Shown here: positions 7,769 through 18,112 of the stretch, piece after piece | How the letters are laid out: every line of letters starts with the position of its first letter | Position numbering within the stretch: position 1 is the first letter of the stretch | Origin: Aureimonas sp. Leaf427 | GTDB taxonomy: Bacteria; Pseudomonadota; Alphaproteobacteria; Rhizobiales; Rhizobiaceae | Length of the DNA: 64,000 nucleotides | Direction of reading: 5' to 3' | Assembly: GCF_001425485.1 (NCBI RefSeq) | Contig: NZ_LMQW01000034.1 | Coordinates: forward strand, 62,001 to 126,000 | Translations under genes and position numbers: made by a program | The notes under the pieces: model-generated | Told to the model about the DNA's origin: nothing | What the model saw: the letters and a program-made list of their open reading frames with translations, nothing else | The model's database searches: none

Positions 7769-8998
7769 ATGAACCTTCGTTTCTCCGCCGAACCCTCCAT
7801 CTCCGAACGCGCTTGCTCCACGGCGGACGAGGCCCTGGCGCTGAGCGCCGTGCCCTCGATCGTCGTCATCGGCGATCTAGTGGAGGGTTGGCCGCCGCGA
7901 CAGGGACGAGGCCTCGATGTGGAGGAGGCGGAGCGATACTGGCGCGAAGCCCCGGTGGAGCAGTGCTTCGGACCGGTCGGCGATCCGATCGCGGCGCGCG
8001 AGACGCTCGCCGTCGTCGGCGGCTATCTGGAGCGGCTGCCGCTCGCCTGCGTCAGCGCCGGCCTCGTGGACCATGCCGAGATCTGGCATCATTGGCGCGG
8101 GGAGGGGCCGGGCCCCTTCCGCCGCGACGGACAGCTACTCGCCCGCCGCGCCTTCAGGATCGACGAAGAGGGCGCGCCCTTCGCCTCCAGCGACATGCTG
8201 GGCTTTCTGCGCGCCCATGGGGCGCCGCATATTCTCGTCGTCCTGGGTCTCGGCGTCGACGAAGCCGTTCTTCGCGCCTGCGGCCGGAGCTTCAAGATCT
8301 ACAACTCGATCGACGCGCCCGCGCTCCGCGTGCCGCCGGAGGTCAGCCGGCATTTCGATCTCGTGCTGACCGGGGCGGAGTGGCAGTCGGAGGCGGTGCG
8401 CGCGCGTCATCCGGACATGGCGACCGAGATCATGCCGATCGGCCCGGAATTCGCCGATCCCGAGACTTTCCGCCCGCTCGGAACGGCAAAGGACTACGAC
8501 CTCGTCTATGTCGCGGCGGCGCAGGGCTACAAGCGGCACGACATCCTCTTCGATGCGCTCGAGCGCCTGCCGCGCTCCATCCGCGCGCTCTGCGTCTTCG
8601 GCTATGGCGAAATGGCGGAGGATCTGAAGCGCCAGGCGGACGAGCGCGGGCTTTCCGTCGATGTCGTCGGCCCGCCCGGCGTGCCTTTCGCCGAGGTCAA
8701 CGCGCTGATGAACCGGGCACGCATCGGCCTCGTCTGCGGCGTCGACGACGGGGCTCCGGCGATCATCACCGAATATATGCTGGCCGGTCTTCCCGTCCTC
8801 GCCAACGAGCGTCTGAGCTGCGGTCTCCAGTTCATCACGCCCGAAACGGGACGGACGGCACCAGCCGAGGGTTTCGCGGACGCGATCACGGACATGCTCG
8901 CCGATCTCGACCGTTTTCGGCCGCGGGAGATCTCGCTGGAACGATGGGTCTGGCCGCACACGGTGGCGCGCCTCACGGCGAGCGTAGGTCCGACTTGA
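7769..8998 (+). CDS. Glycosyltransferase, GT4-like (GT-B fold), first gene of the glycosyltransferase-fusion cluster
   Basis: A 409-residue cytoplasmic protein. The N-terminal half is a variable acceptor-side domain. The C-terminal half is the nucleotide-sugar half of a GT-B enzyme: KDYDLVYVAAAQGYKRHDIL (first strand), ALCVFGYGEMAEDLKRQADE, and PAIITEYMLAGLPVLANERL, which carries one Glu of the EX7E-type motif. No signal peptide or membrane span is visible. The donor and acceptor cannot be assigned. It lies 86 bp ahead of the glycosyltransferase-mutase fusion and probably acts in the same pathway. It is the only protein of the block with no extra enzyme domain. Confidence 0.78.
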   Translation: MNLRFSAEPSISERACSTADEALALSAVPSIVVIGDLVEGWPPRQGRGLDVEEAERYWREAPVEQCFGPVGDPIAARETLAVVGGYLERLPLACVSAGLVDHAEIWHHWRGEGPGPFRRDGQLLARRAFRIDEEGAPFASSDMLGFLRAHGAPHILVVLGLGVDEAVLRACGRSFKIYNSIDAPALRVPPEVSRHFDLVLTGAEWQSEAVRARHPDMATEIMPIGPEFADPETFRPLGTAKDYDLVYVAAAQGYKRHDILFDALERLPRSIRALCVFGYGEMAEDLKRQADERGLSVDVVGPPGVPFAEVNALMNRARIGLVCGVDDGAPAIITEYMLAGLPVLANERLSCGLQFITPETGRTAPAEGFADAITDMLADLDRFRPREISLERWVWPHTVARLTASVGPT

Positions 8999-9036
8999 TA
9001 AAGACCTCCTGACGCGGTCGCCGCCGGAGAACGCAA

Positions 9037-9063
9037 CGGTAAGTCTGACGTTCAGACTTACCG
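9037..9063 (+). promoter_or_regulatory. Perfect 12-bp inverted repeat between the first two cluster genes
   Basis: CGGTAAGTCTGA is followed by a 3-nt loop and its exact reverse complement. It sits in the only real spacer of the cluster, about 20 bp before the TTG start of the mutase fusion and close to its ribosome-binding site (GGAG). There is no T-run. It could be an RNA hairpin that modulates processing or translation of the downstream genes, or a protein operator. Confidence 0.55.
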
Positions 9064-9084
9064 CATTGCACTTCGGAGATCGCC

Positions 9085-11481
9085 TTGCAGCAGCCCGCCG
9101 ACGCACCGGACCCCGCTCAGGGCTCTCACCAGAGCGACGCCGTTCGGTTCGGCAGTGCGGAACCGCCGATCATCTGCTTCTCGCATCTGCGCTGGGACTT
9201 CGTCGTCCAGCGCCCGCAGCATCTGATGCGCCGCTTCGCGGCCGGGCGGCGCGTGTTCTTCTTCGAGGAGCATATCGGCTGCGACCATCCGCTGCCCTAT
9301 CTCGAATACCATCCGTTTCCGGCCGACGGCGTGATCGCGATCCGTCCGCGCCTGCCCCATTGGTGGAGCGAGGCGGAGCGCGAGGCGGGGCTTCGCGACC
9401 TGCTCGCCATGCTGATCGAGACCAGCCTGCCGGCCCCGCCGGTCCTCTGGTTCTACACGCCGATGATGTTCGCCTTCGCGAAAGACGTTCCGGCAGCGGC
9501 GGTCGTCTACGACTGCATGGACGAACTCGCCAACTTCAAGTTCGCCGATCCCCGCCTCCTGATCGAAGAGGCCGCCCTTCTCGCGCGGGCAGACGTCGTG
9601 TTTACCGGCGGCTTCAGCCTCTACGAGGCCAAGCGCGACCGCCATCCGAACATCCACCCGTTTCCCTCGGCCGTCGATGCCGATCATTTCGCCAAGGCGC
9701 GGGCGTCCCGGGCGGTCGCGCCGGAGGATCAGCGCGCGCTGACGCGCCCGGTGCTCGGCTTCTTCGGCGTCGTGGACGAGCGGATCGATCTCGACCTTCT
9801 CGCCCATCTGGCGGCGGCGCGGCCGGGCTGGTCGATCGTGATGATCGGACCCGTCATGAAGATCGATCCGGCGCATCTGCCCCGGCCCGCGAACATTCAC
9901 TGGCTCGGCGGCCGGCATTACAGCGAGCTGCCGGCGTATCTCTCGGGCTGGGACGTGGCACTCATGCCTTTCGCGCTGAACGAGGCGACACGCTTCATCA
10001 GTCCGACCAAGACGCCGGAATATCTGGCGGGCGGCGTGCCCGTCGTCTCCACGGCCATCACGGATGTCGTGCGCCATTACGGGGCGATCGAGGGCGTGCG
10101 GGTCGCCGATCGCGAAGGGTTCGTCGCGGCCTGCGAAGCGATGCTGGCTCTGCCGAAGGCGGGGCCCTGGCGCGAGGAGGCCGATGCGCTGCTCGCCGAG
10201 ATTTCCTGGGAGCGCACGCAGCAGGCGATGGCGGCGCTCCTGACGGACGCGGTCGTGCAGGCACGCAGCACCCGCGCCCATCCGGCGAACGACGAGAAGC
10301 TGGCCGCGCCCGTCGCGCGGGCGGCGGGGCGGCGCAAGCCGGTGGACGTGCTCGTCGTCGGCGCGGGCTTTGCCGGGTCGGTGCTTGCCGAGCGGCTGGC
10401 GGAGGGCTCCGACCAGCGCGTCCTCGTCGTCGACCGGCGCGATCATATCGGCGGCAATGCCTATGACCATGTCGATGCCGCCGGCATTCTGGTCCATCGC
10501 TACGGGCCGCACATCTTCCACACCAACAGCCGTTCGATCGTCGACTATCTCTCCCGCTTCACCGAATGGCGCCCCTACGAGCACCGCGTCCTCGCGAGCG
10601 TCGCGGGCAAGCTTCTGCCCATCCCGATCAACCGGACGACGCTGAACGGGCTCTATGGCCTCGACCTCCAGAACGAGGCGGAGGCGGCGAGCTTCCTCGC
10701 GGCGCGCGCGGAGCCCGTGGCGGAGGTGCGCACGTCCGAGGACGTCGTGGTCGGAACGGTCGGGCGCGATCTCTACGAGACGTTCTTCCGCGGCTACACG
10801 CGCAAGCAATGGGGTCTCGACCCGTCCGAACTCGACCGATCCGTGACCTCGCGCGTGCCGACCCGCACCTCGACCGACGATCGCTACTTCCTCGACACGT
10901 TTCAGGCCATGCCGAAGGCGGGCTACACGGCCATGTTCGAGCGCATGCTGGATCACCGCAACATCGCGGTGGAGACGTCCGTCGAGTTTCGCGACGTGAT
11001 GAAGGAGGTCGATGCCGAGCGGATCGTCTTCACCGGGCCGATCGACGAGTTCTTCGACCATCGCTTCGGGCCGCTGCCCTATCGCTGCCTGACCTTCCGC
11101 CACGAGACGCTGGACCGCGAGACGTTCCAGCCGGTGGCCGTCGTGAACTACCCGTCCGAGGACGTCTCCTTCACGCGCATCACGGAATACAAGCACCTGA
11201 CCGGCCAGAGCCATCCGCGAACCAGCATCAGCTACGAGCACTCGTCCCCGACCGGAGACCCCTATTACCCGGTGCCGCGCGAGGAAAACCAGGCGATCTA
11301 CCGGCAGTACGAGCGGCTGGCGGCGGAACGGCCGGACGTCTCCTTCGTCGGGCGCCTCGCGACCTATCGCTACTACAACATGGACCAGGTCGTCGGTCAG
11401 GCGCTCGCGGCCTATCGGCGGATGAGCGGGCTCGGCTCCGGCGCGCCCCAGGCCCTCGTCACGGCCAGCCCGACGCCTTGA
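9085..11481 (+). CDS. glf: Glycosyltransferase fused to UDP-galactopyranose mutase
   Basis: A 798-residue two-enzyme protein. Residues about 25-390 are a GT-B glycosyltransferase (LRWDFVVQRPQHLMRRF, VVYDCMDELANFKFAD, SPTKTPEYLAGGVPVVS). Residues about 418-780 are UDP-galactopyranose mutase, the FAD enzyme that converts UDP-galactopyranose to UDP-galactofuranose. It has the FAD fold GAGFAGS (about 426-432), HIGGNAYD, RYGPHIFHT, FRGYTRKQWG and the C-terminal RYYNMDQVVGQAL. Stand-alone mutases are about 370-400 residues, so the whole enzyme is present. The start is a TTG with GGAG seven bases upstream. Its stop overlaps the next gene's TTG start (TTGA), so translation is coupled. The fusion suggests galactofuranose is made next to the transferase that uses it. 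Confidence 0.9.
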   Translation: MQQPADAPDPAQGSHQSDAVRFGSAEPPIICFSHLRWDFVVQRPQHLMRRFAAGRRVFFFEEHIGCDHPLPYLEYHPFPADGVIAIRPRLPHWWSEAEREAGLRDLLAMLIETSLPAPPVLWFYTPMMFAFAKDVPAAAVVYDCMDELANFKFADPRLLIEEAALLARADVVFTGGFSLYEAKRDRHPNIHPFPSAVDADHFAKARASRAVAPEDQRALTRPVLGFFGVVDERIDLDLLAHLAAARPGWSIVMIGPVMKIDPAHLPRPANIHWLGGRHYSELPAYLSGWDVALMPFALNEATRFISPTKTPEYLAGGVPVVSTAITDVVRHYGAIEGVRVADREGFVAACEAMLALPKAGPWREEADALLAEISWERTQQAMAALLTDAVVQARSTRAHPANDEKLAAPVARAAGRRKPVDVLVVGAGFAGSVLAERLAEGSDQRVLVVDRRDHIGGNAYDHVDAAGILVHRYGPHIFHTNSRSIVDYLSRFTEWRPYEHRVLASVAGKLLPIPINRTTLNGLYGLDLQNEAEAASFLAARAEPVAEVRTSEDVVVGTVGRDLYETFFRGYTRKQWGLDPSELDRSVTSRVPTRTSTDDRYFLDTFQAMPKAGYTAMFERMLDHRNIAVETSVEFRDVMKEVDAERIVFTGPIDEFFDHRFGPLPYRCLTFRHETLDRETFQPVAVVNYPSEDVSFTRITEYKHLTGQSHPRTSISYEHSSPTGDPYYPVPREENQAIYRQYERLAAERPDVSFVGRLATYRYYNMDQVVGQALAAYRRMSGLGSGAPQALVTASPTP

Positions 11482-14400
11482 GCCTTCGTCCCGACACCGG
11501 CCGGCCGCCGGAGCCGCCGCTGCGCATCTGTCTTGCGACCGACAGCCTGGAGCCCTCCGGCGTCGGCGAGCACATGATCCTGCTCGCCGAAGAGCTCGGC
11601 GCGCGGGCGGAGATCGTCATCGCCGCCGATCCGCGCTCCGGCCTTCTGGAGAAGGCGGCGCGGAAGGGCCTTGCCGTGAAGCGCCTCGGCGCCGATTTCG
11701 AGACTTGGCTCGCGCGGAGCGGGATCGAGGTGCTCCACGTCCATGCCGGTATCGGCTGGGAGGGGCATGATCTGGCGCGCCTTGGACGCAGCGCCGGCGT
11801 CGCCGCGATCCTGCGCACCGAGCATCTGCCGGATGTTCTCGTCGACGAGGCGCAACGGCTGGAGCACGCGGAGAACCTCGCTCATCTCGACCGGCTGATC
11901 TGCGTCTCCGAGGGCGCCGAGGCGACGTTTCGCGCTGCGGGCTGCCCGGACGATCTCCTCGCGACCGTGAGGAACGGCGTGCGCCGCCTTCCATCGACGG
12001 CTTCGCGCGAGGCCGTTCGCAAGGCGCTCGGCGTTGCGCCCGACGCTCTCCTTCTCCTGACGCTCGCCCGCTTCACCGAGCAGAAGGGGCATCGCCATCT
12101 CCTCGAGGCATGGCCCGCCGTTCTGGCGGCCCATCCCTCGGCCGAGCTTCTTCTTGCCGGGTCCGGTCCGCTGGAGGCGCCGATGCGGGCGGAGGTCGAG
12201 GCGGCGGGGCTCGGCGCGTCCGTCCGCTTCCTCGGAACCCGGACCGATGTCGGCGACCTCCTCGCGGCCGCCGATCTCTTCGTCCTGCCCTCGCTGTTCG
12301 AGGGCCTGCCGCTCGTCGTCCTCGAAGCCATGGCCGCGGGACTGCCGGTCGTGGCGACCCGCATTCCGGGCACGGCCGAGGCCGTGGAGGAGGGCGCGAC
12401 CGGCTGGCTCGTCCCGCCCGCCGACAGCCCGGCTCTCTCTCGGGCGCTCGTCGCCGCGCTCGGCGACCTTAAGGCGCGCGCCGCGCGCGGCGCTGCAGGC
12501 CGGGAGCGTTTCGATCATCATTTCAACGCATCGCGCATGGCGGAGGAGACCTTCGGGCTCTACCGCGCGGCGATGCCCTCGCAAAGGCACGGATCGTCCA
12601 TGACCAAGACCCGCATCGGCTTCATCGGCTCCGGCGGCATCGCGCAGCGCCATCTCGGCATTCTCGAAACCTTCGAGGACGTCACGATCGCCGCCTTCGC
12701 CGATGTCGATCGGGGCCGTGCCGAGGAGGCCGCCGCGCGCTTCGGCGCCCGCGCCTTCGCCGACCACGAGGAGATGCTGGCGGCGGTGGAGCTCGACGCG
12801 CTCTACATCTGCGTGCCGCCTTTCGCGCATGGGGCGCCGGAGCGCGCCGCCATCGAAAAGGGTCTGCCCTTCTTCGTGGAGAAGCCCGTGGGCCTCGATC
12901 TCGCGACGGCGGAGGCGATCTCGCGCGACGTGACCGCGGCCGGTCTCGTCACGGCGGTCGGCTACCACTGGCGCTATCTCGACACGGTGGACGAGGCGCG
13001 CCATCTGCTGGCGCGAAACCCGGCCCAGTTGTTGTCCGGCTACTGGCTGGACTCCACGCCGCCGCCGCAATGGTGGTGGCACGAGGACAAGTCGGGCGGC
13101 CAGATGGTCGAACAGACGACCCATCTCCTCGACCTCGCGCGTTTCCTCGTCGGCGAGGTGACGGAGGTCTACGGGCGGGCGGGCCACAAGGACCGGCCGG
13201 AGTTTCCCGGCCTCGACGTGCCGACGGTGACGACGGCGAACCTCACCTTCCAGTCCGGCGTCGTCGCCAACATCTCCTCCACCTGCCTTCTCGGCTGGAA
13301 CCATCGCGTCGGGCTGCACATCTTCGCGGACAAGCTGGCGATCGAGCTGACCGACCGCGACATCATGGTCGATGTCGGCCGGGGCCGTCCCGTGCGCGGG
13401 GCGGACGGCGATCCGGTCTGGCGCGAGGATCGCGACTTCGTCGATGCCGTTCGCGGCGGCGAGAACCGCATCCGCTGCCCCTATGCCGACGCGCTGGAGA
13501 CGCATCGTCTGGCGCTCGCCGTCGTCGAAAGCGCGCGCAGCGGCGAGCCCGTGCGTCTGGAACTGCCGGCGCTCGCGCGGGCGGAGCCGGCGCCCTTGCT
13601 CCCGCAGCCGCGCGCCGAGCCGCCGCAGGGTCTGCCGCCCGGCCACCGCCACATCCGCTCGCTCGGCTTCGAGCGGCCGGGCAAGGCCTATCATTTCCAG
13701 TACGAGGAGGGTCCTCCCGGCGAAGGCCAGGTCCGGCTCGACACGCTCTATACGGGCTTTTCCGCCGGCACGGAGCTGACCTTCTACAAGGACACCAATC
13801 CCTATCTCCATTCGCGCTGGGACGGCGGGCGCTCGGTCTTCGTGCCCGGCGAGGCGAGCCAGCATTTCCCCGTGCCTTTCCTCGGCTACATGGAGGTCGC
13901 GCGCGTGTCGGAGGCTCGCGCGCCGGGCTTTGCGCCGGGCGACGTCGTCGCCTCGACCTATGCCCACAAGTCCGGCCACACGGCCGACCCGTTCCACGAT
14001 CTTCTCGTCAGGATGCCGGCCGGGATCGATCCGATGCTCGGCATCTACGTCGCGCAGATGGGGCCGATCGCGGCGAACGGCATTCTCCACGCCGATGCCG
14101 AGATGGCGGGCGTCAACGTCGCCAAGCTCGGCGAGGGCGTCGCGGGGCGTCCGGTCCTCGTGATCGGCGCCGGTGTCGTCGGCCTTCTGACGGCGCTCTT
14201 CGCCGCGCGTGCGGGCGCGGCCGAGATCGTCGTCGCCGATCCCTCGCCCTTCCGGCGCGAGAAGGCAGAGGCGCTCGGCTTCACCGCCATGGACGAGGAA
14301 CAGGCCTGGGGCTACGCCAAAGCGTACTGGCATCATGGCGGCGGCGATCGCGGGGCGGATTTCGTCTTCCAGACGCGCGCCTCCTCGGCGAGCCTGCACG

Positions 14401-14735
14401 CCGCGCTCCGCGCCCTGCGGCCGCAGGGCACCGTCATCGATCTCGCCTTCTACCAGGGCGGCGCGGACCATGTGCGGCTCGGCGAGGAGTTCCACCACAA
14501 CGGCCTCTCCATCCGCTGCGCGCAGATCAACCGTGTGCCCCGCGGCCTCGGCTTCGCCTGGACGAAGCGGCGTCTCGCCGCCGAGACGATCGGCCTGCTC
14601 GCCGCGCGCGGCGAGGATATCAAGGCGCAGATGATCACCCATGTCGTGCCCTTCGACGAGGCGCCTGCCTTCATCGACCGGCTCGTGGCGGAGCGGCCGG
14701 ACTTCCTGCAGATCGTCTTCAAGGTTCACGCCTGA
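11478..14735 (+). CDS. Three-domain fusion: GT4 glycosyltransferase, Gfo/Idh oxidoreductase, zinc-less medium-chain dehydrogenase
   Basis: One uninterrupted 1,085-residue frame from a TTG that overlaps the previous stop. Residues about 13-365 are a GT4 transferase (LTLARFTEQKGHRHLLEAWP; LFEGLPLVVLEAMAAGLPVV). Residues about 378-695 are a Gfo/Idh/MocA oxidoreductase: IGFIGSGGIAQRHLG nucleotide fold, EKP with Lys469, and EQTTHLLDL with the usual catalytic-region His. Residues about 715-1085 are a medium-chain dehydrogenase with VIGAGVVGLL at about 894. Its catalytic zinc ligands are lost: the usual CGT reads AGT (Ala763) and the usual GHE reads GYM (803-805), as in BchC-like enzymes. An in-frame ATG at codon 375 could start a separate oxidoreductase, but no stop precedes it and its ribosome-binding site is poor. 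Such a pair could oxidise and reduce a sugar moiety during glycan assembly. Confidence 0.85.
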   Translation: MSLRPDTGRPPEPPLRICLATDSLEPSGVGEHMILLAEELGARAEIVIAADPRSGLLEKAARKGLAVKRLGADFETWLARSGIEVLHVHAGIGWEGHDLARLGRSAGVAAILRTEHLPDVLVDEAQRLEHAENLAHLDRLICVSEGAEATFRAAGCPDDLLATVRNGVRRLPSTASREAVRKALGVAPDALLLLTLARFTEQKGHRHLLEAWPAVLAAHPSAELLLAGSGPLEAPMRAEVEAAGLGASVRFLGTRTDVGDLLAAADLFVLPSLFEGLPLVVLEAMAAGLPVVATRIPGTAEAVEEGATGWLVPPADSPALSRALVAALGDLKARAARGAAGRERFDHHFNASRMAEETFGLYRAAMPSQRHGSSMTKTRIGFIGSGGIAQRHLGILETFEDVTIAAFADVDRGRAEEAAARFGARAFADHEEMLAAVELDALYICVPPFAHGAPERAAIEKGLPFFVEKPVGLDLATAEAISRDVTAAGLVTAVGYHWRYLDTVDEARHLLARNPAQLLSGYWLDSTPPPQWWWHEDKSGGQMVEQTTHLLDLARFLVGEVTEVYGRAGHKDRPEFPGLDVPTVTTANLTFQSGVVANISSTCLLGWNHRVGLHIFADKLAIELTDRDIMVDVGRGRPVRGADGDPVWREDRDFVDAVRGGENRIRCPYADALETHRLALAVVESARSGEPVRLELPALARAEPAPLLPQPRAEPPQGLPPGHRHIRSLGFERPGKAYHFQYEEGPPGEGQVRLDTLYTGFSAGTELTFYKDTNPYLHSRWDGGRSVFVPGEASQHFPVPFLGYMEVARVSEARAPGFAPGDVVASTYAHKSGHTADPFHDLLVRMPAGIDPMLGIYVAQMGPIAANGILHADAEMAGVNVAKLGEGVAGRPVLVIGAGVVGLLTALFAARAGAAEIVVADPSPFRREKAEALGFTAMDEEQAWGYAKAYWHHGGGDRGADFVFQTRASSASLHAALRALRPQGTVIDLAFYQGGADHVRLGEEFHHNGLSIRCAQINRVPRGLGFAWTKRRLAAETIGLLAARGEDIKAQMITHVVPFDEAPAFIDRLVAERPDFLQIVFKVHA

Positions 14736-17002
14736 TGGAGGACGAAGCGGAACCCGTCCGTATCCTCTTCGTCTTCGCCTGGCTCGTCGTCGGCGGGGAG
14801 GAGACGGAGGTCCGGCTTCTCGCCGAGCATCTGGACCCCGCCCGATACCGGATCGAGGTCGTCGCCTGCTTTCGCAAGGAGGGGATGCCCGAGCAGACGC
14901 ATCGGCAGCTGGAAGCGCTCGGCGTTCCCGTCGACCGCACGCCCTATGCGCTCTCCTTCGAGGACACGGTCTCCTATCTCGCCGGCAAGCTCCCGGCCTA
15001 CGACATCGTCGTCTCCTGCCAGAACGTCGCCGACATCTATCCGGCGCTGGAGCGCCTGCATTTCAGGCCGCCGCTGATCGAGCATGGCGGGCTCGTCTCC
15101 GAGGCGCTGGGCGGGCCGAAGCACCTGACGGCGCGCTATGTCGGCGTCTGCCGGACGATCCGCGACGCCGCCGCCGCGAGGATGCCCGGGCGGGAGGCCC
15201 ATGCGCTCGAAATCCCCTCCATGGTCGATCTCGGTCCCTTCGACCGGGCGAGCCGGACTGCGGCCCGCCAAGCGCTCGGCCTCGCGCCGCAGACGCCGCT
15301 CGTCGGCTGGCTCGGGCGGCTCGATCCGAAGAAGCGGGTGGAGGACTTCATCGCCGCCGCCGCGCTCGTCCACGCCGCAAGGCCCGATGCGCGCTTCCTC
15401 GTCATCGGCGGGGCCGACGCCTTCCTGCCGCATTACGAGGCGGAGCTGAAGGCGCGGGCGAAGCTGCACGGTCTCGACGGCGCCCTCGTTTTCCTCGGCG
15501 ACCGGGCCGACGTGCCGGAGCTTCTCGCAGCGCTCGACGTCTTCGTCTGGCTGTCGCGCGGCGAGGGCATGCCGCATGTCATCGCGGAGGCCGGCGCCGC
15601 GCGTCTGCCCGTCATCGCGACGCCCGACAACGGGGCGCTGGAGCAGATCGCGGACGGCGAGACGGGTCTTTTCGTGCCGCACGAAGACCCCGCCGCCACA
15701 GCCGCGGCGATCTCACGCCTTCTCGCCGACCCCGCTCTTCGCCGTCGGCTGGGCGAGGCCTTGCGCGCGAAAGTGGTTCGCGACTACGCGGTCGAGGCCG
15801 TCGTCCCGCAATGGGAGGCGCTCTTTGCGGACGTGCTGGCCGAACGCGGGTCGAACCGGTCGGCGCCGCGGCTCTTTTCCAGCTTCTTCCACGGCGGGTT
15901 CGAGTCCTCCTCGCATCGCCGGGCGCACGATCGCCGGCGGGTGGACATGATCGCGGCGACCGACCACGATCGCCATGCCGAAAGCGACTATCGCGCGTTG
16001 GCGGGCCACGGCATCCTGACCGTTCGCGACGGCCTTCGCTGGCATCTGATCGAGCGCAGCCCCGGCGTCTACGACTGGTCGAGCCTGATGGATCAGCTTC
16101 GCGCGGCCGAGGCGACGGGCACGGAGGTCGTCTGGGACATTCTCCATTATGGCTGGCCGGACGATCTCGACATCTGGCGGCCGGACTTCGTGACGCGGTT
16201 CGCGACCTTCGCGCGGGCGGCGGCCGAGGTGATCGCGGCGCGGACGAGCGGCGCGCCGATCTTCGCGCCCGTCAACGAGATCTCCTTCTTCGCCTGGGGC
16301 GGTGGAGATGCCGGCTATCTCAATCCCTTCGCGAACGGCCGGGGCCATGAGCTGAAGGTTCAGCTCTGCCGCGCGGCCATCGCGGCGATGGAGGCGATCC
16401 TGGCCGTGGTGCCGGGGGGGCGCTTCGTCCATGCCGACCCGGTCATCAACGTCATCTGCGATCCCGGCCGGCCGGGCGATGCGCCGCATGCGGAAGGGCA
16501 CAGGCAGGCGCAGTTCCAGGCCTGGGACATGATCGCCGGGCGCTCCTGGCCGCAGATCGGCGGGTGCGAGGCGCTGCTCGATATCGTCGGGGTGAACTAC
16601 TACTTCAACAATCAGTGGATCCACGGCGGCCCGCCGATCGATCTTGGCCATCCGCTCTACAAGCCCTTCCGTCGCATTCTCGCCGAGACCTACGCGCGCT
16701 ACGGCCGCCCGATCTTCGTCGCGGAGACCGGCATCGAGGCGGAGCGCCGGCCCGCCTGGCTCGCCTATGTCTGCGCGGAGGTGCGCGCGGCCATGCGCTC
16801 GGGCGTGCCGGTCGAGGGCATCTGCCTCTATCCCGTGCTCGACCATCCCGGCTGGGACGACGAGCGCTACTGCCCGAACGGCCTGCTTCAGTTCGAGAAG
16901 GGCGAGGGCCGGCGAACCGCCTATGCGCCGCTCGCCGCCGAACTGCAGCGCCAGCGCCGGCTCTTCGAGGCAGAGACGGGGGCGGCGAAGCGCGGCGCCT
17001 GA
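14735..17002 (+). CDS. GT4 glycosyltransferase fused to a clan-A (GH1-like) glycoside hydrolase
   Basis: A 755-residue protein whose ATG shares one base with the previous stop (TGATG). Residues about 6-375 are a GT4 transferase (VGWLGRLDPKKRVEDFIAAA; SRGEGMPHVIAEAGAARLPV). Residues about 390-745 are a TIM-barrel hydrolase of the GH1/clan-A type. The predicted acid/base is Glu515 in APVNEISFF, the predicted nucleophile is Glu664 in VAETG, and VWDILHYGWPDDL resembles the GH1 HWDLP strand. Both catalytic acids are kept, so it should be active as a glycosidase or transglycosidase. No signal peptide is seen, so it acts in the cytoplasm. It is the last gene of the block and is followed by a terminator. 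It may trim or transfer the sugar added by its own transferase half. Confidence 0.85.
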   Translation: MEDEAEPVRILFVFAWLVVGGEETEVRLLAEHLDPARYRIEVVACFRKEGMPEQTHRQLEALGVPVDRTPYALSFEDTVSYLAGKLPAYDIVVSCQNVADIYPALERLHFRPPLIEHGGLVSEALGGPKHLTARYVGVCRTIRDAAAARMPGREAHALEIPSMVDLGPFDRASRTAARQALGLAPQTPLVGWLGRLDPKKRVEDFIAAAALVHAARPDARFLVIGGADAFLPHYEAELKARAKLHGLDGALVFLGDRADVPELLAALDVFVWLSRGEGMPHVIAEAGAARLPVIATPDNGALEQIADGETGLFVPHEDPAATAAAISRLLADPALRRRLGEALRAKVVRDYAVEAVVPQWEALFADVLAERGSNRSAPRLFSSFFHGGFESSSHRRAHDRRRVDMIAATDHDRHAESDYRALAGHGILTVRDGLRWHLIERSPGVYDWSSLMDQLRAAEATGTEVVWDILHYGWPDDLDIWRPDFVTRFATFARAAAEVIAARTSGAPIFAPVNEISFFAWGGGDAGYLNPFANGRGHELKVQLCRAAIAAMEAILAVVPGGRFVHADPVINVICDPGRPGDAPHAEGHRQAQFQAWDMIAGRSWPQIGGCEALLDIVGVNYYFNNQWIHGGPPIDLGHPLYKPFRRILAETYARYGRPIFVAETGIEAERRPAWLAYVCAEVRAAMRSGVPVEGICLYPVLDHPGWDDERYCPNGLLQFEKGEGRRTAYAPLAAELQRQRRLFEAETGAAKRGA

Positions 17003-17071: not shown

Positions 17072-18112
17072 CTACTTCGCGTAGGACTTCGCCATGACGG
17101 CGAGCGGCTTCACGCGGATCTTGTCGGCATTGCCGGCCGTGCCGAAGGAGACGAAGCGGTCGACGCAGACGGCCTTGGCGGCTTCCATCGCGGGTTTGAG
17201 ATACTTGCGCGGATCGAACTCGCCGGGATCGTTCGCGAAGACCGTGCGGATCGCGCCGGTGATGGCGAGACGAAGGTCGGTGTCGATGTTGATCTTGCGC
17301 ACGCCGTGGCGGATGCCGCGCTGGATCTCCTCGACCGGCACGCCCCAGGTCGGCTTGATCTCGCCGCCATGGGCATTGATGATCTCGCAGAGCTCCTGCG
17401 GCACGGACGAGGAGCCGTGCATCACGAGATGGGTGTTCGGCAGGCGCTTGTGGATCTCCTCGATCACGCCCATGGCCAGCACGTCGCCATCCGGCTTGCG
17501 CGTGAACTTGTAGGCGCCGTGGCTGGTGCCCATGGCGACGGCCAGCGCATCGACGCCGGTCTCGGCGACGAAGCGGGCGGCCTCTTCCGGATCGGTCAGG
17601 AGCTGGTGCTCCTCCAGCTTCTCCGTCGCGCCGTGTCCGTCTTCCTGGTCGCCCATCCCGCTTTCCAGCGAGCCGAGAACGCCGAGCTCGCCTTCCACGG
17701 ACACGCCCGCGGCATGGGCCATCTCGACGACGGTCCGGGTGATGCCGGCATTGTAGGCGTAGTCGGCCGGCGTCGTGCCGTCCGCCTTCAGCGAGCCGTC
17801 CATCATGACGGAGGTGAAGCCGTTCTGGACGGCGGTGACGCAGGTGGCCAGCCCGTTGCCGTGGTCGAGATGCATGACGACAGGGATGTGCGGGTAGAGC
17901 TCCACGAGGCCGTCGATCAGCCGGGCGAGCACGATGTCGTTGGCATAGGCCCGGGCGCCCCGGCTGGCCTGGATGATGACCGGCGAGCCCGTCTGGTCGG
18001 CGGCGGCCATGACGGCGAGGCCCTGTTCCATGTTGTTGATGTTGAAGGCGGGGACGCCGTAATTGTTCTCGGCGGCGTGGTCGAGCAGCTGGCGGAGCGT
18101 GATGCGGGCCAT
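17072..18112 (-). CDS. fba: Class II fructose-bisphosphate aldolase
   Basis: A 346-residue zinc aldolase (cytoplasmic) that joins DHAP with glyceraldehyde 3-phosphate, or with erythrose 4-phosphate to give sedoheptulose bisphosphate. Signatures are VVMHLDHGN (catalytic Asp and zinc His near residue 80), [18 protein letters not shown] with a zinc His, MHGSSSVP and [11 protein letters not shown]. Length and sequence fit the CbbA-type subgroup. It is divergent from a DeoR regulator and the tpiA2-rpiB genes, sharing their intergenic region. A role in handling triose and tetrose phosphates from that locus is therefore likely, rather than being only the housekeeping glycolytic copy. Confidence 0.93.

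Follow-up and report, generated by a model that had tools for sequence, protein, structure and literature searches.

Four consecutive genes of Aureimonas sp. Leaf427 each encode a glycosyltransferase (GT) domain, which raises the question of whether they serve one pathway and what that pathway would make. The window, a stretch of 64,000 nucleotides (contig NZ_LMQW01000034.1, positions 62,001 to 126,000), carries all four on its forward strand. The first gene, g1 (7769..8998), encodes a GT-B group 1 (GT4-like) glycosyltransferase of 409 aa (Pfam PF00534, E 2.5e-12) and adjoins g2 in relatives. In g2 (9085..11481; 798 aa, TTG start), Pfam and NCBIfam place a GT4-like domain (9085-10284) fused to a UDP-galactopyranose mutase (UGM; 10345-11415, GLF model). 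The third gene, g3 (11478..14735; 1085 aa, TTG start), joins a GT4 domain (11478-12572) to a Gfo/Idh/MocA dehydrogenase (12612-13556, GFO_IDH_MocA) and a medium-chain dehydrogenase (MDR; 13611-14732, ADH_zinc_N), as judged from Pfam/NCBIfam and conserved residues, and g4 (14735..17002; 755 aa) joins a GT4 domain (14735-15844), its one Pfam-matched part, to a GH1-like domain (15875-16999) recognized by profile and fold, with no signal peptide seen by hydropathy. The C-terminal GT-B domain of GT4 (PF00534/PF13692) was found in four of the four proteins. These assignments agree with the initial annotation, which had described a GT domain in every protein, three of them fused to other enzymes, and joins by TTGA (11478-11481, g2/g3) and TGATG (14733-14737, g3/g4). 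Its term “four-gene block” does not show that g1 stands 86 bases apart from the overlapping g2-g3-g4, with a promoter-like site in that gap. The best NCBIfam matches of the GT domains, TIGR03088 for g3 and g4 and the teichuronic acid protein TuaH for g2, all score far under the curated cut-offs, so that the named specificities do not apply here. A crude hydropathy scan found no signal-like or membrane-like stretches in the four proteins, the single high value being the Rossmann loop of g3. By Pfam, the four genes lack a flippase and a polymerase, as had been stated, and an initiating transferase (Wzx/Wzy-type), and the features listed for five plasmid neighbourhoods, from an incomplete gene table, include none of these.

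The initial annotation had suggested a search of related genomes for neighbours with the same fusions, and these were found. The GH domain has 477 relatives, and the loci of the best 80 were compared, a sample biased to close relatives. Among these best 80, all eight domains occur in the same order in 51, and 18 are cassettes missing only the UGM. The GT-UGM fusion of g2 is kept in 54 of the 56 loci of this set that have both domains, the GT-GH fusion of g4 in 75/77, and the GT-Gfo/Idh fusion of g3 in 70/73; the Gfo/Idh-MDR fusion is seen in only 50/75, the two being separate frames in sphingomonads. Rhizobiaceae, Aureimonas and sphingomonads all have members with the cassette, and many plant-associated bacteria keep the same gene order. 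The GH domain is present in 32 of 148 genomes of a Rhizobium's genus, 21 of 201 of a Sphingomonas's genus and 14 of 39 of an Agrobacterium's genus (the centre genome counted in each), on plasmids and elsewhere, and no relative of it was found on viral contigs. An accessory, laterally spread cassette is the best explanation. One rival view is that unrelated sugar genes came together here by chance or recently and have no joint function, and the abundance of GT4-type domains (between 0 and 14 matches in each genome of 60 relatives) would favour it. Nevertheless, an eight-domain order that stays identical from one family or order to another, the strong residue conservation in every domain, and the presence of a UGM elsewhere whenever the cassette is without one leave that explanation a negligible probability; we consider it refuted by the 51 loci, and the proposal of one pathway gains support.

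A mutase had been proposed to make the donor sugar. The UGM domain of g2 has conserved motifs, scores over the family cut-offs along the full domain (TIGR00031, 373 bits against 303.75, E 1.5e-111; PF03275/GLF, 259 bits against 26.3, E 2.9e-77) and is the only PF03275 match in the window's genome. All 18 UGM-less cassette genomes encode one stand-alone UGM elsewhere (in a frame of 386-424 aa), and in the 11 searched genomes with a fused UGM, ten with one UGM only and one with two, every copy lies in a long frame (781-1223 aa). Gain and loss of the UGM require at least six changes on the g4 tree. Since a UGM is present elsewhere in 18/18 of these genomes and the changes on the tree are several, the cassette probably needs UDP-galactofuranose, and these sequence comparisons support the donor-sugar proposal. 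As background, a UGM was found in 9 of 53 GH-less relatives, and each of the seven genomes with the GH domain, that of the window among them, has one. Within an Agrobacterium's genus, the figures were 14/14 GH-bearing and 13/25 GH-less genomes (Fisher p 0.0026, with kinship ignored). In our reading, a stand-alone UGM is common in this Agrobacterium-type genus for another reason, and redundancy could thus explain part of the UGM pattern.

The C-terminal 375 aa of g4 gave no Pfam match. The GH1 Pfam model did not match at an E limit of 5, the sole match being PF02449 at E 0.22 (HMMER filters drop most matches above 0.1), and for this reason the domain is called GH1-like and not GH1. By profile comparison the domain is GH1-like, the beta-galactosidase 4ha3 being the best-matching chain at E 1.4e-8. 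Its AlphaFold model has a mean pLDDT of 91.2, and the top 50 Foldseek matches were beta-glucosidases and related glycosidases, of family 1 wherever a family was named (TMq 0.68-0.79, 14-20% identity); the predicted (beta/alpha)8 fold is closest to GH1. The hydrolase had been described as having intact acids, and two Glu residues, in an NE motif (E135 of the domain; 16277..16279, forward strand) and an AETG motif (E284; 16724..16726, forward strand), are invariant in alignments of 15 and of 55 sequences; by analogy to GH1, we take them to be the putative acid/base and nucleophile, respectively. Structure prediction had been proposed earlier for each fusion; the model of the oxidoreductase pair of g3 (pLDDT 76.8, pTM 0.56) was too weak for use in a fold search. 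The catalytic motifs of Gfo/Idh/MocA enzymes are EKP and D/H; this domain of g3 matches PF01408, and its E94-K95-P96 and H175 are invariant in 36 sequences. Zinc-dependent MDR enzymes carry a catalytic zinc Cys/His ligand motif, and in g3 these ligands were not seen in the conserved columns, judged by inspection only, where SAGTEL and GYME stand at the expected Cys and GHE motifs.

A smaller core, consisting of a GT, a UGM and a GH1-like protein, was found in other alphaproteobacteria, often with an MsbA-like ABC exporter. The core survey comprised 27 genomes, with 22 neighbourhoods read besides the window (L035 and L036 included) and four left out. The three components stand together in 20 of the 22 read loci without the full cassette, one of the other two being cut by a contig end. 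They are together also on Azospirillum, Skermanella, Mesorhizobium and Chryseobacterium plasmids, those of Azospirillum and Skermanella with an MsbA/NdvA-like exporter, and a core without exporter lies on one plasmid of another phylum, Bacteroidota. A Methylomagnum gene run with galK and galT inside it speaks for a galactofuranose pathway; against it stand an FAD domain unmatched by the GLF model in Pantoea and Methylomagnum, and a Deinococcus GH fused to an acyl-CoA dehydrogenase with neither GT nor UGM beside it. An MsbA/NdvA-like exporter adjoins the GH gene in 13 of the 25 loci read; eight of the 13 are from one family, so that the core loci are not independent. From this gene context, the product of the exporter-bearing core relatives is probably exported, which makes a purely soluble intracellular product less likely. 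The earlier suggestion was a soluble glycoside or glycolipid head group; the best reading here is an oligosaccharide or glycolipid.

The gap between g1 and g2 may also bear on when the cassette is expressed, and neither the general-stress promoter of the relatives nor the stress-gene setting had been part of the initial annotation. A motif scan found an EcfG/RpoE2-type promoter-like site, AGAAC-N17-GTT (9028..9052, forward strand), one mismatch away from GGAAC-N17-GTT and with 32 bases between its end and the start of g2. By chance alone, 5.4% of regions would hold a site with up to one mismatch. A perfect inverted repeat with 12-base arms and a 3-base loop (9037..9063) overlaps the window's site; a role as general operator was rejected, as other scanned g1-g2 gaps reach only 7-8 base arms. 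The exact motif stands before g2 in 43 of 68 cassettes, where 0.3% (in shuffles) to about 1% is expected by chance, this gap having been chosen after the motif was seen there by eye and then counted. When spacings of 10-25 were compared, only 17 stood out (43 loci; others 0-3). The 68 loci are those of the 80 left after dropping six cut by contig ends, two minimal forms, three without a g1 match, and L056, in which the g2 match is split. In a separate set of divergent core loci, GGAAC-N17-GTT was found in 13 of 14, against 3.4% by chance. Among minimal forms, the exact motif precedes GT-UGM in L038 and L084 (which share a contig), L039 and L121, and GH in L035, while none of the tested starts has it in L036, L037 and L040. 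It is likewise missing from the g1-g2 gap in all 16 sphingomonad cassettes (two have a site with one mismatch), in 4 of 9 named Aureimonas, and anywhere in the stretch read of the full cassettes L187 and L188. A promoter before g1 was rejected, the enrichment there being weak (8/68 relaxed versus 3.5%, 4/68 strict versus 0.7%). The cassette motif agrees with the RpoE2 patterns GGAAC-N18-TT and GGAAC-N16-CGTT as they appear in excerpts of two reports (PMC6011840; PMC3892343).

Consistent with a stress setting, the flanks of the best 80 of 477 loci are enriched in stress genes, with neighbour families checked by Pfam on seven representatives. In this set, DUF892 is near the cassette in 17/80 loci versus about 0.4 expected, with at least nine changes on the tree; catalase is near in 11/80, for which only three changes are needed, and Ku in 4/80. 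A Paracoccus locus contains a ferritin-like protein besides Ku and LigD. The window's genome has one copy of DUF892, which lies on another contig and not near the cassette. The general stress regulon of Sphingomonas melonis, in an excerpt of its description, includes a glycosyltransferase operon alongside catalases, ferritin-like proteins and Ku (PMC6599016). On leaves, Sphingomonas Leaf257 is reported to induce glycosyltransferases strongly (PMC9123166), and these could not be tied to the cassette.

We propose, with a probability of about 0.65, that this accessory cassette makes an oligosaccharide or glycolipid that contains galactofuranose, and that EcfG/RpoE2 controls it in most rhizobial relatives. 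We infer galactofuranose in the product, the order of the steps, the acceptor, the role of the GH domain and a protective function, and the route might run as follows. The UGM would convert UDP-galactopyranose to UDP-galactofuranose and hand it to the fused GT of g2; with the GH1-like enzyme, these two would form the core, and the cytosolic GH1-like domain would work on the growing glycan, either trimming it or acting as a transglycosidase. Three further GT domains (g1, g3-GT, g4-GT) would come with the full cassette, and its Gfo/Idh and MDR pair would oxidise and re-reduce, probably epimerising, one sugar. In many relatives the core-encoded ABC exporter would carry the product outward, and in the four-gene form export would be left to a protein encoded elsewhere.

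Galactofuranose is classically an envelope sugar, and the cassette might instead add a galactofuranose side chain to a known surface polymer (LPS core/O-antigen or exopolysaccharide), needing no lipid-carrier or export genes since it would use intermediates of that machinery. The cytosolic appearance of the GTs, the TuaH match, the lack of initiating transferase, Wzx and Wzy, and flanks that vary between loci (five plasmid loci) would all suit such a role. We nonetheless regard it as rather unlikely: the exporter in 13/25 core loci points to a product that stands alone, the same cassette turns up in Rhizobiaceae, Aureimonas and sphingomonads, and no LPS/EPS genes are among the features given in the incomplete gene table of the five plasmid loci. 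Still more doubtful is a small galactofuranoside serving as a soluble stress solute inside the cell, which the GTs would make and the GH1-like domain would tune or degrade; it would fit the promoter and neighbours, the proteins without visible signal peptides or membrane segments and the exporter-less four-gene form, whereas a small solute would hardly call for four GT domains and a redox pair, and the core is coupled to an exporter. By analogy with the plant enzyme SFR2, a stress-induced remodelling of membranes can also be imagined, which we consider improbable: the UGM and GT would put galactofuranose on a lipid head group, a cytosolic GH1-like transglycosidase would lengthen or rearrange it, the MsbA-like exporter would flip the lipid outward, and the four-gene cassette would be an elaborated form building a longer, redox-edited head group.

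If the proposed galactofuranose pathway is correct, the general stress response of alphaproteobacteria gains a concrete chemical output, a galactofuranose compound that could be sought by mass spectrometry, and an uncharacterised GH1-like family is tied to biosynthesis instead of breakdown, as part of a core that reaches another phylum. The initial annotation knew of no pathway with these fusions, and we found no description of the cassette in open-access PMC papers, a search that mostly excludes subscription literature. UDP-galactopyranose mutase (Glf) pathways build O-antigens and mycobacterial galactan; the cassette resembles them in a UGM over the TIGR00031 curated cut-off with a GT beside or fused to it, and differs in having no polymerase, carrier-linked initiation or Wzx, and in its UGM-GT4-like fusion, its fixed GH1-like partner and the stress-type promoter of its relatives. 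SFR2, a galactolipid galactosyltransferase of the GH1 family, is a transglycosidase in plant membranes, and the two may be likened, by analogy only, as GH1-fold enzymes tied to galactose and stress; SFR2 differs as a plant protein that handles galactopyranose, with neither GT nor UGM fused to it. Excerpts on the EcfG/RpoE2 regulons of Sinorhizobium meliloti, Rhizobium etli and Sphingomonas melonis do not name this cassette (PMC6011840; PMC3892343; PMC6599016), and many of its relatives share their promoter pattern.

The cassette (genes g1 to g4, 7769-17002) was described in the initial annotation as four genes that all carry a glycosyltransferase (GT) domain, three of them fused to another enzyme, and this description was borne out: the domain content of all four genes matches it, and the TTGA and TGATG overlaps are present in the sequence. 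In profile searches g1 is a GT-B enzyme, g2 joins a GT to a UDP-galactopyranose mutase (UGM), g3 carries GT, Gfo/Idh and medium-chain dehydrogenase (MDR) domains, and g4 is a GT with a second domain that has no Pfam match and is GH1-like in its profile and its predicted fold. Among aligned relatives, the two putative catalytic glutamates of the GH1-like domain are invariant, and the Gfo/Idh and MDR domains are both strongly conserved. The nearest match to g4 among named plasmids is from Aureimonas sp. AU20 (77%). Directly downstream of the cassette, on the minus strand, lie a class II fructose-bisphosphate aldolase (17072-18112) and then a DeoR regulator, which appear unrelated to it.

Searching for the GH domain in a set with one genome per species, we found 477 relatives and retained the best 80; these 80 loci were grouped from the domain table, with split matches counted as one domain. 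All eight domains occur in the same order and strand in 51 loci, 18 have everything except UGM, three have UGM and no match to g1 (in one case next to a contig end), two have GT, UGM and GH only, and six are cut by contig ends. Within the same best 80, single open frames join GT to UGM in 54/56 loci, GT to GH in 75/77 and GT to Gfo/Idh in 70/73, and Gfo/Idh to MDR in just 50/75, with sphingomonads among the split-frame cases. Domain order is more fixed than domain fusions.

The listed flanks of the cassette are unlike one another in all five annotated plasmids, a pattern as for a module that moves. Lateral transfer of the cassette is also suggested by a tree of 76 g4 rows (midpoint root), since Aureimonas, including the g4 of the window, is grouped with sphingomonads, apart from the Rhizobiaceae rows (fork support 90). 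The GH domain is patchy in three genera picked because a member carries it (14/39, 21/201 and 32/148 genomes), and class-wide it was found in 5/385 genomes, the window's own counted.

Judged from gene content, the cassette seems to need UGM. Where the cassette lacks UGM (18 genomes), exactly one UGM lies elsewhere in each genome, in a frame of 386-424 aa; in 10 of the 11 fused-UGM genomes searched there is a single UGM, the other genome has two, and every copy lies in a frame of 781-1223 aa. Across 60 relatives, including the genome of the window, UGM is present in 7/7 GH-bearing genomes vs 9/53 others, and across 39 genomes of one genus in 14/14 vs 13/25. UGM presence shows at least six changes on the g4 tree (71 rows scored). 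Two plasmid records with a UGM-less cassette, in which the plasmid alone was searched, have no UGM on that plasmid. Four of six neighbourhoods of stand-alone UGMs (loci L136-L138 and L141) hold chemotaxis or flagellar genes, TPR proteins or giant repeat proteins of up to 2391 aa, with repeats like LSTEQVKALSS; these gene names are our reading of the sequences, made without a family search. Such neighbourhoods look like a separate surface-protein glycosylation locus; with these neighbours, the stand-alone UGM probably has a job different from that of the cassette, and the UGM-less cassette may borrow its UDP-galactofuranose (UDP-Galf).

An order-wide search of 397 genomes found the GH family in 27, and 25 neighbourhoods were read: 20 from the 27, plus five fetched earlier, two of which are also in the 27. 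The full cassette is present in three of the 25, and GT, UGM and GH occur together in 20, with GT-UGM divergent from GH in 14 of these; of the remaining two, one breaks off at a contig end and the other has GH alone (41% identity). An ABC exporter adjoins GH in 13/25 neighbourhoods, eight of the 13 in one family, and that of locus L036, the sole exporter tested against NCBIfam, is like MsbA, NdvA/ChvA and PglK but under their cut-offs. GT, UGM, GH and ABC genes are consecutive on Azospirillum and Skermanella plasmids, and Mesorhizobium and Chryseobacterium (Bacteroidota) plasmids carry GT, UGM and GH. A Pantoea agglomerans plasmid encodes a single 1251 aa protein with GH1-like, GT and amine-oxidase-like FAD domains (L195, 8992-12747), and a Methylomagnum plasmid has one run (L197, 1386-9137) of a GT+FAD protein, its FAD domain again amine-oxidase-like, a glycoside hydrolase that the annotation places in family 2, galT, galK and the GH1-like gene. 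Deinococcus radiodurans is an exception to the core pattern: its plasmid fuses the same GH1-like domain to an acyl-CoA dehydrogenase (L194, 8929-11268), and a PIG-L deacetylase gene follows. In the minimal cassette of Phyllobacterium (L121), we read a transposase-like gene (8818-9921) between UGM and the GH gene, and DUF892-like and catalase-like genes downstream. Locus L084, titled Candidatus Kuenenia, has the same genes as the alphaproteobacterial locus L038 on an equally long contig (37,499), and its title is probably a binning or labelling error.

The gap between g1 and g2 holds GGAAC-N17-GTT in 43/68 cassettes from the best 80 of 477 relatives, compared with chance levels of 1.2% in random windows and 0.3-0.8% in shuffles. 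Three control motifs occur in 0-1 of the 68 gaps, and among spacings of 10 to 25 none besides 17 exceeds three loci. The motif is consistent with the RpoE2/EcfG pattern given in passages of PMC6011840 and PMC3892343. The 43 comprise 5/9 named Aureimonas and 38 titled Rhizobium, Agrobacterium, relatives or 'Rhizobiales bacterium'; 4/5 annotated plasmid cassettes have the motif, the gaps of sphingomonad cassettes have no exact copy (0/16), and in two further full cassettes (L187 and L188) it is found nowhere in the stretch read. Divergent core loci carry GGAAC-N16..18-GTT, on either strand, between GH and GT in 13/14 cases vs 3.4% by chance. The site of the window (9028-9052) is AGAAC-N17-GTT, with one mismatch and a chance of 5.4% per region; therefore the claim of stress control for this genome rests on its relatives. 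A perfect inverted repeat at 9037-9063 (12-base arms, 3-base loop) spans the likely transcription start of g2-g4, and because the other scanned g1-g2 gaps have no arms longer than eight bases, it is perhaps a local operator or attenuator.

Stress genes also neighbour the cassette in some loci. DUF892 occurs in the flanks of 17/80 loci (best 80 of 477), with ~0.4 expected given 73 copies across 30 genomes and a flank length of 835 kb; six of the 17 are sphingomonad loci with a common gene order, and the tree requires at least nine changes. In the same 80, catalase is a neighbour in 11 loci (three changes on the tree) and Ku in four. Pfam confirmed the neighbour families on seven representatives.

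UGM is the source of UDP-Galf, and the GT of g2, because it is fused to and constantly paired with UGM, is the likely Galf transferase. Neither the fused GH1-like protein nor five free ones showed a signal-like stretch in a hydropathy scan; the enzyme is therefore probably intracellular, and a role in synthesis would fit this better than foraging. The best solved relatives of the Gfo/Idh and MDR part by sequence are a myo-inositol dehydrogenase and DgpA, and this part could oxidise, then re-reduce, one sugar carbon. In the core form, the presence of an exporter suggests that the product would leave the cytosol. The glycan system is real and conserved. We found no description of it in open-access papers; the enzyme families are ordinary in themselves, but their fixed combination is new and its regulatory setting unexpected.
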